The notes beneath the pieces are model-generated. The model had not been told where the DNA came from. It did not search any database and worked only from the letters and a program-made list of their open reading frames with translations. From Cyanobacteria bacterium FACHB-471 (GTDB taxonomy: Bacteria; Cyanobacteriota; Cyanobacteriia; Elainellales; Elainellaceae), in contig JACJOC010000044.1 in NCBI GenBank assembly GCA_014695345.1, forward strand, positions 1-64,000: DNA of 64,000 nt, written 5' to 3'. Position numbers and translations under genes: made by a program. Positions 3,846-28,734 of this stretch are shown one piece after another (position 1 is the first letter of the stretch; the number at the start of each line of letters is the position of its first letter).

Positions 3846-5153
3846 ATGGTGGCTCGCTTTTTCTCTCGTATTATCTCTCGCCTTAATAGAACAAGGTTTC
3901 CTGCGATCGCTTTTGTTGGCTTTACAGCCTTGCTTCTGCTCTGGTTTATATCTCCCGTTTTGTCTCAAGAATCGTTAGAAGAGAAGGTGTTTAACGAGGT
4001 TTGGCAAACAGTTAATGATAATTTTTATGATGACAATTTTAACGGAATTGACTGGGCAGCAATGCCAGACAAGTATAGACCTCAAATCAGGCAAGTACAA
4101 AGTCGTCAGCAGTTTGCGGAGGTCATTAATCAGATGCTAGCTGAATTGCAAACCTCCCACACCTACTTTTACACCCCAAGCGAAACTGCTTACTACCAAC
4201 TTTTAGGGATTTTTCAACCTGAAATCAACGATCTACCAGCTGCTGCAAAAGCACTATTTCCCAACGATAGATATGAGTACACCGGCATTGGTATTTTCAC
4301 TAAAACCAGCCACGAAAAAACTTTTGTCAGCGCGATTTTGGAGGGTAGCCCAGCGGCGATCGCAGGTTTAAGGGTAGGTGATGAATTACTTAGCGTAGAC
4401 GGCAACCCCTATCAACCGATTGAGTCATTCACAGGTAAAGCAGGACAAGACGTAACGCTGTTGATTCAGCGATCTGCTGATCCCACTAGTCAGCAGGAGA
4501 TTAATGTTACTCCTCAAACATTCGACACAACGATCTTGTTCAAAGAGGCGCAGCAAGCAAGTACTCAAGTGATTGAGCAACAGGGTAAACGCATTGGCTA
4601 TATTCACATTTGGTCCAATGCGGCTGATCTTCATCAACAGCAGATGATGGAAGATTTGATGTTTGGCAAGCTCGCCGATGCCGATGGTTTGGTATTAGAT
4701 ATTCGTGACGGATGGGGAGGAGGTTCGATCGCTTATCTCAATTTCTTTACGGGTGAGAGTCCGAGCATCACCAGTATTAGACGAGATGGAAATGCATTCA
4801 TCGCCGATTACCGCTGGAAAAAACCCGTAGTTCTTCTGATGAATGAGGGCAGCAGAAGCAGCAAGGAAATTATCGCCTTTGGCTTTCGGCAATCTGAAAT
4901 TGGGACTTTAGTCGGCACAACCACCGCAGGCGCAGTTGTAGCAGGACGTGGCTTTGTGATGCAAGACGGCAGTTTGCTATATGTTGCTGTAGCGGATGTG
5001 TTGGTAGATGGCAATCAGAGATTAGAAGGAAAGGGAGTAACCCCAGATATTCCTGTGGCTTTTCCGTTGGAATACGCAGAAGGCGTTGACCCTCAAAAGC
5101 AGCAGGCGATCGCTACATTAGTTACTGCTATTGAACAGCAACACCACCATTAA
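3846..5153 (+). CDS. S41-family (C-terminal processing-like) peptidase with PDZ domain
   Basis: The ATG at 3846 is chosen over the longer frame (from 3663), which would overlap the divergent GFA gene. It gives 435 residues starting MVARFF with a membrane anchor or signal (AIAFVGFTALLLLWF) about residues 19-35. A helical N-terminal domain follows, then a PDZ-like region (IAGLRVGDELLSVDGNPY) and the S41 core (GLVLDIRDGWGGGS, then NEGSRSSKEI with the predicted nucleophile Ser). The Lys of the classical CtpA Ser/Lys pair, normally in a T-x-G-K-G motif, is replaced by VGTTTAGAVV, so the active-site chemistry may be of the tricorn or IRBP-like type. It should act in the periplasm or thylakoid lumen. 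Confidence 0.8.
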   Translation: MVARFFSRIISRLNRTRFPAIAFVGFTALLLLWFISPVLSQESLEEKVFNEVWQTVNDNFYDDNFNGIDWAAMPDKYRPQIRQVQSRQQFAEVINQMLAELQTSHTYFYTPSETAYYQLLGIFQPEINDLPAAAKALFPNDRYEYTGIGIFTKTSHEKTFVSAILEGSPAAIAGLRVGDELLSVDGNPYQPIESFTGKAGQDVTLLIQRSADPTSQQEINVTPQTFDTTILFKEAQQASTQVIEQQGKRIGYIHIWSNAADLHQQQMMEDLMFGKLADADGLVLDIRDGWGGGSIAYLNFFTGESPSITSIRRDGNAFIADYRWKKPVVLLMNEGSRSSKEIIAFGFRQSEIGTLVGTTTAGAVVAGRGFVMQDGSLLYVAVADVLVDGNQRLEGKGVTPDIPVAFPLEYAEGVDPQKQQAIATLVTAIEQQHHH

Positions 5154-23370: not shown

Positions 23371-24528
23371 ATGAGCTTCCTTTCGATTGAAGAACTGAAA
23401 GAACTTGTTGACCAGCCGCAAGGATTGTGTGTATCGATCTACATGCCCACTGTGCAGCTTGGTTCTGAAACTCAGCAAAACTCTGTTCGCTTTAAGAATC
23501 TAATTCGACAGGCGCAAGCAGAGTTAGAAAAATATGAATCGCCACCTCTCGATCTAGGTGAATTTCTTCAGCCTGCGATCGCCTTGGATACGGATGAATT
23601 TTGGCAGCATCAGGACGCGGGTTTAGCTTTGTTCGTCTCAGAAGGATTTTTCCGCTTCTATCGCGTGCCGCTCGAAATGATTGAACTGGTGGTCGTGAGC
23701 AATCGCTTTCATCTCAAACCATTAATTCCGCTGTTGGGCGGAGATAACCGCTTCTACATTCTCACGCTTGGTCAGCGCGATATCCGTCTTGTGGAAGCTA
23801 ATCGCTACGGCATTACCCGTGAGGTTGAAATCGAAGGCTTGCCAAAAGACATGGATGAAGCCTTGCAGTATGACGAAACATCAAAAGATCAACAGCGGCG
23901 GCAGGAGGGCGGTGCAGGTCGTGCAGGCTTACAAGGTGGCGGCTCATATCACGGACAAGGAGCCGATCGCGAAAACGTGAAGGAAGATTTGCTGCAATAT
24001 TTTCACTTAGTGGATAAAGCGCTGCACGACTTCTTCCGCAACCGTCGCTCTCCGCTTGTTCTAGCTGGCGTTAACTATTTGCTGCCAATTTATCAGGAGG
24101 CAAATACCTACAATTTTATTGTGGAAGAAGGCATTCAACACAATGTCAAAGAGCGATCGGCGGAAGAGCTTCATGCGGAGGCTTGGGCGATCGTAGGGCC
24201 ACAGTTTGAAGCAGACCAGCAAAAGGCGATCGATTACTATCATGAGTCGATTGCTAATGGTAAAGGATCAAACGATTTGAATGAAGTGATTCAAGGTGCG
24301 TTTTATGGTCGTGTAGAACAGCTTTTTGTTCCGGTTGGAGTACAGAAATGGGGGCATTTTGATCCGGACTCAATGCAGCTTGAAATGCACGATGAGACTC
24401 AACCGGGTGATGAAGATTTGCTCAATGCAGCAGCTATTCAAACGGTTCTTCATGGTGGAACGGTGTATGCCGTTGAGCCAGAAGGAGTACCGGATGAGAC
24501 ACCCATTGCAGCAGTGTTTCGCTACTAA
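23371..24528 (+). CDS. Bacterial archaeo-eukaryotic release factor family 3 (baeRF3) protein
   Basis: The 385 residues begin SFLSIEELKELVDQPQGLCV followed by SIYMPTVQLGSETQQN, matching the baeRF_family3 domain pattern, which is related to the middle domains of archaeal/eukaryal peptide release factor aRF1/eRF1. A Gly-rich loop (GGAGRAGLQGGGSYHGQG, about residues 181-199) occupies the place where eRF1 carries the catalytic GGQ loop; GQG is present but GGQ is not. The C-terminal part (FFRNRRSPLVLAGVNYLLPI) fits an L7Ae/eRF1-domain-3-like fold. A ribosome- or tRNA-related role is predicted but unproven. It converges on rtcA. Confidence 0.75.
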   Translation: MSFLSIEELKELVDQPQGLCVSIYMPTVQLGSETQQNSVRFKNLIRQAQAELEKYESPPLDLGEFLQPAIALDTDEFWQHQDAGLALFVSEGFFRFYRVPLEMIELVVVSNRFHLKPLIPLLGGDNRFYILTLGQRDIRLVEANRYGITREVEIEGLPKDMDEALQYDETSKDQQRRQEGGAGRAGLQGGGSYHGQGADRENVKEDLLQYFHLVDKALHDFFRNRRSPLVLAGVNYLLPIYQEANTYNFIVEEGIQHNVKERSAEELHAEAWAIVGPQFEADQQKAIDYYHESIANGKGSNDLNEVIQGAFYGRVEQLFVPVGVQKWGHFDPDSMQLEMHDETQPGDEDLLNAAAIQTVLHGGTVYAVEPEGVPDETPIAAVFRY

Positions 24529-24565
24529 TTGCGATTTATAGAGCGACACGTCAATTTCTGTGAGG

Positions 24566-24619: not shown

Positions 24620-24655
24620 AAAAAAGAGGACGGAGCTTTAGCTCCGTCCTCTTTA
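24620..24655. terminator. Bidirectional intrinsic terminator between baeRF3 and rtcA
   Basis: GAGGACGGAGC (24626-24636), loop TTTA, GCTCCGTCCTC (24641-24651): an 11-bp perfect GC-rich stem. Six A residues precede it (24620-24625), giving U6 for minus-strand transcripts of the rtc operon. CTTTAT follows for plus-strand transcripts. It lies exactly between the two convergent genes. Confidence 0.85.
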
Positions 24656-25717
24656 TCAACTTCGTGAAGGTGAGGGTGTGACCGTGACAAGTCGAGTGCT
24701 TGAGTCGATTGCCACTTTTGCCAGTCCAAATTGCTCAATCACCCAGGCATTGGTGATCAGATGAGTACTGATTTCTGCCACTCGATATTGGCTGGGTTCC
24801 AAAGCTAAGGCGGCTGGCAGGAGGAGCTGATCCGCTAAATGAACATCAACGGGTGCTCCATTTTCGTGGAACGCTAGAAACTCCTGGGTGGCGATCGCAG
24901 CAACTTCTTCGGCAGGTAATCCGATTTTTCCAACTGCCCCAAAGCCTGTCCGGGTATGCTCATACTCTGCCATCAAAAAGATGCCCGTTCCGGGACCAAC
25001 GCCTCGTTCTCGTTGGGGCTGCACCTGAGCTTTTAACTGCGCCTGCTCTAACAAATTCTGTGCTCTGTTTGCCATCCGTTGAGGAATGTGGGACGGCAGC
25101 TCTGTGGCGATCGCCAATCCTTTAACCTGATGTAAGTCTCCCCGCTCTAGCAGGTGAATTGGTTGAAGTGAACCCACTCCACCATTTCCACTAACCTGCA
25201 AGTTCAACTCACCGCCACCCCGCGGATACCAGCCCCAAGCCTTCAGTTTCACGGTTGCCTGTACACCCATCTGCTGCAAACAGGGCAAATACACCTGTTC
25301 AATGTAAGGAGCGGGTGGACTCCAGGGAATAAAAGTGCCTCCTCTCAAAGTCACGATCGACTCCCCTTGAGTAAGTGCCAAGGGCAGCAAAACCGTTTGT
25401 AGAGTTAGGGTTACGGCTCCGGCTGATCCAGTTCCTACCGTTTGTGCAACGTCAAAGGTATATTGTCCCGCTTGAATGGGTTGGCTGGGAGTAAATTCTA
25501 TCTGGGTTGAACCAACGCGATCGCCTACAACCTTCGCTTGACACAGCATTGCGGCTGCCCGCACTCCAGTTAAATGTTGGATTGCCAATCCTGGCTTTTC
25601 CCGTTTTGCTCGAATGCGATCGATCCGAATCGCTCGCCCGGTAATCGCCGCTAAACTCAAGCTGGTGCGAAGGATTTGCCCTCCCCCTTCTCCATAGGAA
25701 CCGTCGATATGTAGCAT
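24656..25717 (-). CDS. rtcA: RNA 3'-terminal phosphate cyclase
   Basis: This 353-residue protein is close to the family length of about 340. The hallmark N-terminus IDGSYGEGGGQILRTSLSL and a C-terminal HLITNAWVIEQF with the predicted adenylated His are present. The enzyme converts RNA 3'-phosphates to 2',3'-cyclic phosphates using ATP, making ends that RtcB can seal. Last gene of a four-gene operon; its start is 1 bp after the archease stop. It ends against a strong terminator. Confidence 0.92.
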   Translation of the reverse strand: MLHIDGSYGEGGGQILRTSLSLAAITGRAIRIDRIRAKREKPGLAIQHLTGVRAAAMLCQAKVVGDRVGSTQIEFTPSQPIQAGQYTFDVAQTVGTGSAGAVTLTLQTVLLPLALTQGESIVTLRGGTFIPWSPPAPYIEQVYLPCLQQMGVQATVKLKAWGWYPRGGGELNLQVSGNGGVGSLQPIHLLERGDLHQVKGLAIATELPSHIPQRMANRAQNLLEQAQLKAQVQPQRERGVGPGTGIFLMAEYEHTRTGFGAVGKIGLPAEEVAAIATQEFLAFHENGAPVDVHLADQLLLPAALALEPSQYRVAEISTHLITNAWVIEQFGLAKVAIDSSTRLVTVTPSPSRS

Positions 25718-25718
25718 C

Positions 25719-26150
25719 TTAAATATCCAGAATCACTTGTGCCATCCAACCCGACTCTGTTTTTTCGAGTTGAAACTGATGGAGCGTGACAGCTTTGACA
25801 TCCACTCGCTGATGATGGCGATCGCGATCTAACCTTTCTCCTTGAGTCATGGCTGTCAGATGATAAATAGATTCCTTTTGGGCAATTTCCACCTGTTGGG
25901 CTCGGAGTAATAACAACTCACTGTCCTTGTAATAAACAAATTCTTGTAAAAAGTTAAATAATAGTAAATCCAGCTCATCATTTTCTAGTTGAAATGTGCG
26001 CGCTTCAGTGAGTGCGATCGCTTCGAGATTATCAATCATTGTGTTAATTACAGCATCTCCTGCCGCTCTGAATACTTCCTCCAAATCGTCTCCCCAGGCA
26101 TGGAAGGCAATATCAGCCGTAGCGATATCTTCAAGGAATTCGTAGGGCAT
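25719..26150 (-). CDS. Archease, activator of RtcB RNA ligase
   Basis: The 143 residues show the archease pattern: YEFLEDIATADIAFHAWGDD near the start, acidic metal-binding residues, an AVINTMIDN helix and DLLLFNFLQEFVYYKDSE. A C-terminal KAVTLHQFQLEK strand carries the usual basic-His patch. Archease speeds guanylylation and turnover of RtcB in archaea, humans and some bacteria. The gene lies 5 bp after the COG0523 GTPase and 1 bp before rtcA, so co-translation is likely. Confidence 0.9.
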   Translation of the reverse strand: MPYEFLEDIATADIAFHAWGDDLEEVFRAAGDAVINTMIDNLEAIALTEARTFQLENDELDLLLFNFLQEFVYYKDSELLLLRAQQVEIAQKESIYHLTAMTQGERLDRDRHHQRVDVKAVTLHQFQLEKTESGWMAQVILDI

Positions 26151-26155
26151 AGCAC

Positions 26156-27043
26156 TTACTTTTGCTCACAGGATTGAAGGCGATCGCAAATTTCAGGTTT
26201 TTGTTGGGTGACGTGTTTGCCGATAAAAACAAGTTCTGTAGAAGAGGGTTCAAAGAGTTCTAAGTCCCAACGTCCGGCAACAAAATTGAACAGGTGGGTA
26301 CCTTCAGGAAATTGCACAAACCCCTTGGCTCGATAGATATCAGAACTGAGAGAATCGGCAAATTCAGTAAAACAGGTGCGATCGTAAACTGCCTGTGATG
26401 TGTAACTGAAAGACTCAAATTCAGGTTGATGGTGATGATGGGGCGATGGCTGTAAGCGATCTCGACCAATCCCAAATAACAAATCGGGGTCGATCTGACA
26501 GCGAATCGTGGAAATGATCGAGGCAATTTCATTCAGACTCTGAAGCTTGTCCGTAATCGTTGCCAATTCCTGTTCAGAAACTAGATCTACCTTGTTGAGC
26601 AGCAAAATATCTGCGGATTCAATCTGGATGCGACTGGTGTGTCCCACTTGAGGATACTTCACCAATCCATCCGCATCAATGACGGTGATAACGCCATCTA
26701 GTCGAACCTGGGGCAAACTTTCTTGAATATCAAACACCAGAGCATCAGGTTCTGCCACCCCAGTGGTTTCGACGACAAGATAGTCTGGATTCACCGTTGC
26801 GATAATTTCATCAACCGCCGCTTCAAATTCACCCAGCAGCGAACAACAGACACAGCCGCCGCCCAAATCTGCCATCTCTACATTCTTACCTTGCAGAATT
26901 TTAGTGTCGATCGCGATTTCGCCAAACTCATTCATCAAAATGGCAATCTTGCGCGGTACCACCGTCAGAATGTGCCGCAGCAGCGTCGTCTTACCGCTAC
27001 CCAGCGGCCCCGTAAGAACAGTCAGTGGTGTACGTCCTGGCAT
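26156..27043 (-). CDS. COG0523/CobW-family GTPase, putative metallochaperone
   Basis: The 295 residues contain Walker A TGPLGSGKTTLL (Lys18), the CxCC metal motif in GGGCVCCSL (Cys64, Cys66, Cys67), Walker B-like VVETTGVAEPDA and the base-specificity motif LLNKVDL. A His-rich stretch (SPHHHHQPEF, about residue 208-217) and a short CobW_C domain follow. G3E GTPases of this group insert or shuttle zinc, cobalt or other metals. The gene sits 3 bp after rtcB and 5 bp before the archease gene. I infer a link to RtcB metal loading (RtcB uses Mn2+ and is inhibited by wrong metals); this is not established. Confidence 0.88.
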   Translation of the reverse strand: MPGRTPLTVLTGPLGSGKTTLLRHILTVVPRKIAILMNEFGEIAIDTKILQGKNVEMADLGGGCVCCSLLGEFEAAVDEIIATVNPDYLVVETTGVAEPDALVFDIQESLPQVRLDGVITVIDADGLVKYPQVGHTSRIQIESADILLLNKVDLVSEQELATITDKLQSLNEIASIISTIRCQIDPDLLFGIGRDRLQPSPHHHHQPEFESFSYTSQAVYDRTCFTEFADSLSSDIYRAKGFVQFPEGTHLFNFVAGRWDLELFEPSSTELVFIGKHVTQQKPEICDRLQSCEQK

Positions 27044-27046
27044 ACC

Positions 27047-28507
27047 TCACCCCTTCACATTGCCGATCGGGGTTAGTCTGACCACCCGCCGACTGATGCC
27101 TGCTAACTCTGCGGCTTCGATTACCTCATCGACATCCTTGTAAGCACCTCCCGCTTCCTCCGCCAACCCTGCATAGGAGGTACTGCGAACATAAATGCCC
27201 TTTTGCTGCATTTCTTTCTGAAGCTGCTGCCCCTGCCAGGTTTTGCGGGCTTTCGTGCGGCTCATCGTGCGTCCGCTGCCGTGGGCGGTGCTAAAAAAAG
27301 TTTGATCGCCTGTAGCTACGCCTGTAAGCAAATATGATCCCGTTTCCATGCTGCCACCAATGATCACGGGCTGACCGGTTTCTTGATAACGGTAGGGCAA
27401 ATCACTCATGCCAGGACCAAAGGCGCGGGTGGCTCCCTTGCGGTGAACGAGCAGCGATCGCTCCTTACCATCCACGATATGTTTCTCTAACTTAGCGGTG
27501 TTGTGCGACACGTCGTAAACCATGTGCATTCCCAGATCTTCGGGCGATCGCTCAAACACTTGCGAAAACACCTCACGAATGCGGTGCAAAATCACTTGTC
27601 GATTGACAAACGACATATTGATGCCACATTTCATCGCCGAAAAGTATGCTTGTCCTTCGGGGGAATTAAAGGGGGCACAGGCTAATTCGCGATCGAGAAT
27701 TTTGATGCCATACTTGCTGTCCATCACCTTGAGAAAGCTTTGCAGATAATCCGTCGCGACCTGATGCCCAAACCCACGGCTGCCGCAGTGAAACATCACT
27801 ACTACCTGATCGGGACGGGTAATCCCCATCGCTTTAGCTAGATTCTTATCAAAAATATTTTCCCGTTTAGCAACCTGAATTTCCAGGTAATGATTACCGG
27901 AACCCAGCGTACCAATTTGGTGAACGCCGCGATCGATCGCCTTTTCACTAATCTTTTTGGCATCGGCTCCCTTTAAACAGCCTTGCTCTTCGATTAACTC
28001 CAAATCCTCTTCCCAGCCATAGCCATTATGAATGCACCATTGAGCTCCCTGCTCTGCCACCTTACGGAACTCATTACGGGAGAGTTTCACAAATCCAGTA
28101 CTGCCAACGCCTGCCGGGACCCGCTCATACAGCTTATCCACCAACTTTTTAATGTGGGGTTTGACCTCTTTGTAATCTAGATTAGTCGTCACCAGACGCA
28201 TTCCACAATTAATGTCAAATCCAATGCCACCAGGAGAAATTACGCCGCCCTGATCTACATCCATCGCTGCTACACCCCCAATCGGGAAGCCATAGCCAAA
28301 GTGTCCGTCGGGCATACACAAAGCATATTTGGTGATGCCGGGCAAAGTCGCGACATTGGTAATTTGGTCGTAAACCGCATCATCCAATTCTCGAATCAAT
28401 TTTTCAGTGCCGTAAATCCGCGCAGGTACCCGCATTCCATCTTTGTAAGAGACTGGAACCTCCCAAATTACATCCGAAATTTGGTTTAATACATCGATAG
28501 GAGCCAT
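27047..28507 (-). CDS. rtcB: RNA-splicing ligase RtcB
   Basis: The ATG at 28507, preceded by GAGGTAAAG, gives 486 residues; the frame is open to 28591, but that leader is atypical. The active-site set is complete: MPDGHFGYGFPIGG, FDINCGMRLV (metal Cys), GTLGSGNHYLEIQ, FHCGSRGFGHQ, VSHNTAKLEKH and the guanylylated His in TAHGSGRTMSRTKA. It joins RNA 2',3'-cyclic phosphate or 3'-phosphate ends to 5'-OH ends using GTP and Mn2+. First gene of rtcB-COG0523-archease-rtcA. No RtcR-type sigma-54 activator gene is nearby. Confidence 0.94.
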   Translation of the reverse strand: MAPIDVLNQISDVIWEVPVSYKDGMRVPARIYGTEKLIRELDDAVYDQITNVATLPGITKYALCMPDGHFGYGFPIGGVAAMDVDQGGVISPGGIGFDINCGMRLVTTNLDYKEVKPHIKKLVDKLYERVPAGVGSTGFVKLSRNEFRKVAEQGAQWCIHNGYGWEEDLELIEEQGCLKGADAKKISEKAIDRGVHQIGTLGSGNHYLEIQVAKRENIFDKNLAKAMGITRPDQVVVMFHCGSRGFGHQVATDYLQSFLKVMDSKYGIKILDRELACAPFNSPEGQAYFSAMKCGINMSFVNRQVILHRIREVFSQVFERSPEDLGMHMVYDVSHNTAKLEKHIVDGKERSLLVHRKGATRAFGPGMSDLPYRYQETGQPVIIGGSMETGSYLLTGVATGDQTFFSTAHGSGRTMSRTKARKTWQGQQLQKEMQQKGIYVRSTSYAGLAEEAGGAYKDVDEVIEAAELAGISRRVVRLTPIGNVKG

Positions 28508-28734
28508 AACTTTACCTCGTGAACTGCGCGAAGGGTGCCTTCTACTTATGGATAGAAATACACCTACGTTCTGAATCGTCAAATTACTCAATTCAAAACT
28601 GCTCCCTGAGCATCTTCGTCCTGTCTATTTGCGATTTATAGGGACTGCGTCCAGTTTCTAAAGACCCGGCAAAAAGAACCTCCCCCTATGGGTTTATCCA
28701 TTGAGCGATGGTCACGAGTAAAGTTCGCATGGCT

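Follow-up and report, generated by a model that had tools for sequence, protein, structure and literature searches.

Why should a GTPase of a metal-handling type be encoded between an RNA ligase and the activator of that ligase? The question is raised by an operon of Cyanobacteria bacterium FACHB-471, located within positions 1 to 64,000 of contig JACJOC010000044.1 (GenBank assembly GCA_014695345.1), the whole 64,000-nucleotide stretch being termed the window. A preliminary description of this DNA had reported, for the minus strand, the order rtcB, COG0523 GTPase gene, archease, rtcA, with 3, 5 and 1 bp between neighbours, and both the order and these gaps (counted after the stop codons) were recovered here:

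27047..28507, minus strand: rtcB, RNA ligase, 486 amino acids (PF01139, E-value 2.8e-171, 570.9 bits)
26156..27043, minus strand: COG0523/G3E GTPase, 295 amino acids (PF02492, 9.6e-46; CobW_C, 6e-13)
25719..26150, minus strand: archease, 143 amino acids (PF01951, 3.2e-39, 134.8 bits), predicted from its family to activate RtcB
24656..25717, minus strand: rtcA, 353 amino acids (PF01137; TIGR03399 at 400.3 bits against a cut-off of 250.05)

Since many bacteria and archaea that are not related to one another have this metal-type GTPase gene between those of the RNA ligase and of its activator, one family of RNA ligases may have a metal-handling helper of its own.

Contigs were scanned with the GTPase by means of six peptide patterns and the best 80 of 84 relatives were retained, the resulting counts not being a census. 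Two of the 80 loci (Thiobacillus, 33-41% identity) carry unrelated paralogs and were left out. Among the remaining 78 loci (numbered with the prefix L), rtcB is located at most 1 kb upstream of the GTPase gene in 68 and archease at most 1.1 kb downstream in 70, both neighbours lying on one strand in 63, with median gaps of 19.5 and 41.5 bp. The adjacency to rtcB thus extends well beyond this strain. The 78 loci comprise 36 cyanobacterial, 16 verrucomicrobial, 5 acidobacterial and 4 gemmatimonadal loci, 3 that are desulfobacterial in the wide sense (L072, L077, L079), 2 labelled Deltaproteobacteria, 3 each from Aenigmatarchaeota and Micrarchaeota, and one each from Nitrospirae, Nitrospinota, Latescibacterota, Kerfeldbacteria, Woesearchaeota and Crenarchaeota. 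The Kerfeldbacteria locus (L060) groups with Aenigmatarchaeota and is probably a misbinned contig. Contiguous rtcB-GTPase-archease trios are spread over 12 bacterial and archaeal phyla (Micrarchaeota being counted from a separate genome comparison), and because it recurs so widely the arrangement is beyond chance. Chlorogloeopsis fritschii and Fischerella are among the carriers of the trio.

The trio is incomplete in 15 of the 78 loci: five are broken or cut by contig ends (L029, L063, L069, L082, L086), six are archaeal or archaeal-like with dispersed genes (L058, L060, L064, L065, L066, L070), two have the GTPase gene beside rtcB and archease elsewhere in the genome (L077, L079), and two more (L043, L048) are considered below. 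When all open reading frames (ORFs) of the loci were clustered, rtcB, GTPase and archease were the only families recurring across phyla; no fourth gene does so, the next family reaching 12 loci, where it lies on the opposite strand, and a wider conserved operon was ruled out on this basis. The four-gene operon initially described is therefore conserved only in its first three genes: rtcA is present in the window and in just 6 of the 78 loci (L009-L014, close relatives), and is a local addition outside the conserved unit rtcB-GTPase-archease. The proposed tie of the GTPase to rtcB needed a similar adjustment, since rtcB is a conserved neighbour but some archaea keep only archease adjacent. As the archaeal GTPase gene stays beside archease where rtcB has moved, the link is to the RtcB/archease pair and not to rtcB alone. 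No relative of the GTPase was found in viral contigs, phage records lying outside that search, or in plasmids at E 1e-40, and spread by mobile elements is unsupported by these searches.

Which RtcB accompanies the GTPase? The RtcB of the window keeps the metal ligands D98, C101, H206, H240 and H335 and the catalytic H409, which correspond to D95, C98, H203, H234, H329 and H404 of Pyrococcus horikoshii. It carries in addition a subtype signature composed of Y207, E388 and A408, at the places of P. horikoshii F204, which was reported to contact guanine (PMC3973293), G382 and C403, the latter beside the catalytic histidine. The three residues occur together in 76/78 GTPase-linked rows of the alignment, in 12/12 rows of the same type without the GTPase and in 0/37 others. 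As judged from the aligned residues, the subtype RtcB has a changed nucleotide pocket with its metal ligands kept. In the RtcB tree the subtype forms one side of a branch with a Shimodaira-Hasegawa-like approximate likelihood ratio test (SH-aLRT) support of 100 (35 of 55 rows), and presence of the GTPase requires 5 changes. Residues C177, C277 and S299 appeared to mark GTPase-linked RtcB when six unlinked rows were compared, and were dropped as strict markers with twelve. A search by sequence returned no solved structure of the subtype, the nearest being P. horikoshii RtcB, a TTHA1785 protein and human RTCB. The archease of the window aligns to P. horikoshii 4n2p with the N-terminal metal-site Asp and the C-terminal Asp-Ile kept.

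Three observations on these genes are recorded in their own right. In a woesearchaeotal locus (L061, 3121-5963), rtcB is interrupted around residue 100 by a long insert that is probably an intein, and long frames from residue 100 are likewise seen in many rtcB genes of the other type in Micrarchaeota. In Microseira wollei (L026, 6873-10587) the trio is followed downstream by another complete archease-like copy (72% identity) and by a fragment.

Genome-wide comparisons were made both ways in three phyla. PF01139 is present in 62 of 146 genomes of Cyanobacteriota and a long archease-type RtcB (>500 bits) in 5; the same 5 carry a full archease, two further genomes having weaker partial matches. 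The GTPase occurs in 2/146, in both cases in the trio, at 468 bits versus 157 bits for the next COG0523 match in any genome. It is found in 2/2 genomes with the subtype versus 0/3 others, whose RtcB shows only 44-49% identity. Among 146 genomes of Micrarchaeota, 139 have RtcB at E 1e-60, with at least 67% identity to the L070 protein in 14 and at most 52% in 125, and the GTPase (E 1e-30) is present in 8/14 subtype genomes versus 0/132 others (p 7e-10, ignoring relatedness); three of the eight (genomes G163, G162, G158) were known from the initial scan, which leaves 5/11. Archease is present in 140/146; in 8/8 of the GTPase genomes it follows the GTPase gene on the same strand at a distance of no more than 1.1 kb, rtcB being within 1 kb in 3/8, farther along the contig in 2/8 and on another contig in 3/8. 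In Acidobacteriota, 35/396 genomes have RtcB at E 1e-150, 12 at 67% identity or more and 23 at 50-53%, and the GTPase gene adjoins rtcB in 6/12 subtype loci versus 0/18 other loci examined (of the 23); as three of the six were known before, 3/9 remain. In one acidobacterial locus (L186) only the C-terminal part of the GTPase gene is left, out of frame, between rtcB and archease, which suggests, barring an assembly fault, a gene caught in decay. We conclude that the GTPase is confined to one RtcB subtype in the three phyla.

Conversely, the 25 genomes bearing the GTPase contain RtcB in 23 cases and archease in 24, the two without RtcB being small (1.0 and 0.5 Mb) and partial, and in no near-complete genome tested was the GTPase found without RtcB and archease. 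In Verrucomicrobiota it occurs in 1/194 genomes at E 1e-40, the query genome itself. That the GTPase was not found without the pair in those genomes, goes with one subtype only and was lost repeatedly while rtcB-archease stayed indicates an accessory depending on the pair, and not the reverse.

The GTPase itself has the hallmarks of COG0523. It scores 156 bits against PF02492 (cut-off 20.7), the match to the cobW G domain that defines the family, with a P-loop at G12-T20, an invariant Walker B glutamate (E92) and an NKxD motif (window residues 150-153) in 83/83 clade rows, three of which duplicate other rows. The CxCC motif announced at residues 64-67 is there as C64-V-C66-C67 and is kept in 82/83 rows, the exception being L080. 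The His-rich stretch expected near residue 210 is also present but sits slightly earlier, at H202-H205, and a linker motif of two or more histidines is found in 76/83 rows. The window protein has cysteines at 64, 66, 67, 182, 224, 286 and 292, and C182 and C292 are shared by 75% and 87% of the clade rows. It falls below the model cut-offs of CobW (TIGR02475, 125.8 bits vs 332.1), YjiA (NF008578, 113.4 vs 361) and ZigA/YciC (NF038288, 109.1 vs 600), and lacks the extra cysteine pair of CobW (C56, C61; PMC7895991). The source genome has eight PF02492 matches, of which three others resemble the GTPase at 30-41% identity.

In a tree with 21 other COG0523 rows, E. coli YjiA and own-genome paralogs included, the GTPase clade forms one side of a branch with SH-aLRT 96, as obtained with a short tree search and with long branches flagged. 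This tree was rebuilt without two distant G3E rows and without YeiR: in an earlier tree containing them, a branch of length 9.55 joined the G3E rows to the interior of the clade, which then needed 2 changes. Residues rare or absent in 22 paralogs include G52, G62, E74, E79, E98, A101, P131 and G134. The suggestion that the GTPase might form its own COG0523 subgroup is hence upheld; its adjacency to rtcB is not peculiar to one strain, and it does not cluster with the known chaperone groups tested, E. coli YjiA falling outside the clade. A predicted structure (mean predicted local distance difference test score 79, with the CxCC loop 61-69 under 50) served for a fold search only, in which Zn-bound YjiA was the best match, followed by HypB, UreG and MeaB. 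Two acidobacterial genomes with the trio (L115, L116) have one more COG0523 protein, about 35% identical and encoded on contigs other than that of rtcB, which falls near the clade base in one tree.

RtcB is a manganese-dependent, two-metal enzyme with a cysteine ligand, and it had been proposed that the GTPase supplies or guards its metal. A simple supply of manganese is unlikely, as the measured COG0523 proteins YjiA and YeiR hardly bind Mn (with affinities of about 1e-4 M at best) and prefer Zn, which YjiA binds at 3.7e-12 M, and simple Mn delivery was set aside on these published affinities (PMC7895991). Loading or exchange of Zn or Co, or removal of a wrong ion, appears likelier because the Mn affinity is weak and the RtcB site contains a cysteine. 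One of the two ions in P. horikoshii RtcB can be Zn, the metal coordination being described as not fully understood (PMC10630183), and human RTCB is reported to be inactivated by Cu and to need a guard (PMC12263435). G3E proteins encoded beside an enzyme usually mature that enzyme (PMC2770081).

Our computations show a neighbourhood that is conserved, a GTPase that depends on one RtcB subtype, motifs that are kept and a gene that is lost repeatedly. From this we propose that the GTPase may be a dedicated accessory of this subtype, acting as a G3E metal insertase or metal-exchange factor, and give this reading a probability of roughly 0.55. Most likely it would load, swap or clear a thiophilic metal (Zn or Co, not Mn) in the subtype RtcB, with archease. 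GTP-coupled metal handling is what its family would predict; that RtcB is the client, which metal is concerned and in which direction it moves are suggested with less support than this. In the scheme that we favour, the GTP-bound enzyme would hold a thiophilic ion at its CxCC, Zn(II) or Co(II) being the likeliest, and the linker HxH, perhaps together with C182/C292, would assist. The GTPase would then dock on RtcB, perhaps with archease, a direct contact that we infer, and GTP hydrolysis would open the metal site. RtcB would receive the ion at its Cys101/His240/His335 site, or give up a wrong one from it, after which the second ion would enter with the nucleotide. A more ambitious version, in which a GTP-driven exchange factor serves the whole subtype, bacterial and archaeal, by loading Zn/Co or stripping a poisoning ion, metal loading thereby acting as a gate on RNA repair, is offered tentatively, as somewhat less probable than its negation.

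Several findings weigh against an accessory of this kind. Where the RtcB subtype is the same, 6/14 Micrarchaeota and 5 to 6 of 12 Acidobacteriota lack the GTPase, and being absent from so many same-subtype genomes it is not essential for the ligase. With twelve unlinked subtype rows compared, its presence is mirrored by no residue of RtcB. Several archaea have rtcB away from it, and L043 and L048 have no rtcB within about 6 kb upstream. L080 is without CxCC at the aligned place and 7/83 rows have fewer than two linker histidines. RtcB from P. horikoshii, E. coli and human is active in vitro when Mn or Co is added, without any protein of this kind (PMC10630183), and the metal role of the GTPase is deduced from its sequence and family.

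Could the GTPase instead act with archease on the guanylylation or release of stalled RtcB, GTP hydrolysis being the switch and the metal structural or regulatory? An effect of archease on nucleotide use is known (PMC3973293), the Micrarchaeota keep the GTPase gene beside archease in 8/8 genomes and within 1 kb of rtcB in only 3/8, and the linked RtcB has the altered nucleotide pocket (Y207, E388, A408). However, the pocket changes are equally found in 12/12 subtype members without the GTPase, the CxCC is nearly invariant, the gene adjoins rtcB with archease elsewhere in L077 and L079, and the characterised G3E proteins in the literature covered all handle a metal or metal-cofactor. We consider a switch of this kind unlikely. 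Less probable still is a zinc-status factor (like ZigA or YciC) with its main client elsewhere, RNA repair being co-expressed under metal stress. COG0523 proteins are indeed widely linked to zinc limitation (PMC2770081), and a coupling of the operon to zinc starvation had been envisaged. The clade is nevertheless separate from the tested paralogs (109 of 600 bits for ZigA), is restricted to one RtcB subtype, and strays from genomes with RtcB and archease only in the two small partial ones. Furthermore, a cyanobacterial Zur consensus matches once in the 64 kb, at 4016, far from the operon and below the chance mean of 3.2, and with no Zur-like box near the operon Zur control was set aside as unsupported by this search. 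In a PF02492 scan of 24 genomes, of which 20 were non-cyanobacterial GTPase carriers, 15 of these 20 had no other match above 100 bits, the GTPase being their sole match of COG0523 strength, which likewise lends the coupling no support.

The least probable explanation, which we regard as rather improbable, is that a GTPase of unrelated function merely travels with rtcB-archease in a horizontally transferred operon. The patchy spread (1/194 Verrucomicrobiota at E 1e-40, 2/146 Cyanobacteriota) and the repeated loss would fit such a passenger, but the linkage outlasts broken gene order in archaea, the flanking genes are not conserved, and in the genomes tested no other RtcB type was accompanied by the GTPase.

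The operon of the window is bordered by two further elements:

24623..24654, minus strand: intrinsic terminator (14-pair stem, T-rich tail) 3' of rtcA, at the operon end
28620..28705, minus strand: leader element upstream of rtcB, conserved in L009-L011, the three closest relatives in which it is present

The strong terminator described at the operon end is thus present, although the scan as a whole found sites no more numerous than in shuffles, the other three having only 5 to 7 pairs. For rtcB the ORF list also gives a TTG start at 28591; RtcB of close relatives and of P. horikoshii aligns from the ATG at 28507 or from a few residues later. The leader element (about 80 bp) has 76-81% identity in L009-L011, sequence farther upstream not being conserved, and with possible TTTAGA and TATAAA boxes, seen by eye, it is probably a promoter or operator. 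An RNA element in the leader was ruled out, no Rfam family being above threshold there and the fold being ordinary (z -0.16). A 13-base repeat, CTATAAATCGCAA, flanks the operon on both sides (24529-24541 and 28629-28641, minus strand), with 0.11 matches expected in the window. Convergent to the operon end lies a gene of the bacterial archaeo-eukaryotic release factor families (baeRF; 23371-24528, plus strand) that scores below the cut-off of the NCBIfam ribosome hibernation factor model; neither it nor two ORFs upstream of the operon had a tblastn match in L001-L088. PADLOC returned nothing meaningful, merely two P-loop-sized matches of about 18 bits, and a defence system was dropped from consideration.

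According to its main survey, over half of the COG0523 family has unknown targets (PMC2770081). If the proposed metal insertase does serve a nucleic acid ligase alone, the family would gain a new class of client. A clade with one well-assayed candidate client makes the questions of COG0523 targets and of the RtcB metal directly testable: the ligation assay is simple, every component is a small soluble protein, and a single phylum offers natural pairs that have or lack the GTPase. In our literature search no paper treated COG0523 and RtcB, or RtcB and CobW, together, the figures and supplements of the COG0523 survey (PMC2770081) lying outside its coverage.

How does this locus compare with known systems? 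It resembles the rtcB-archease tRNA splicing operon of P. horikoshii and others (Desai 2014, PMC3973293) in both enzymes, in their adjacent genes and in the catalytic and metal residues; unlike the window, that operon comes without mention of a GTPase in the parts of the account covered, and its RtcB is of a different subtype, with about 54% identity to that of the window. With the E. coli-type rtcBA RNA repair operon it shares rtcA and rtcB in one operon, whereas the E. coli control gave no archease match and the rtcA of the window is joined to an archease-type operon. The GTPase has the G domain, CxCC, NKxD and CobW_C of CobW, YjiA, YeiR, ZigA/YciC and Nha3, YjiA being the nearest solved structure, but differs from the characterised groups in its separate clade, its RNA-ligase neighbourhood, scores below the NCBIfam cut-offs for CobW, YjiA and ZigA, and clade signatures such as G62, E72, E74, E79, P131 and G134. 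PYROXD1 guards human RTCB against oxidation induced by Cu and is said to shield its metal site and active-site cysteine (PMC12263435). It is likewise an accessory, but a flavin oxidoreductase of unrelated fold, and the comparison indicates no more than that the metal site of RtcB may require a protector. HypB, UreG and MeaB are G3E maturation GTPases with one client each that are encoded beside the client enzyme (PMC2770081) and were recovered as fold matches. HypB (hydrogenase) and UreG (urease) are the models for what the GTPase might do, with the differences that its proposed client is an RNA ligase and that HypB/UreG-like sequences are very distant from it.

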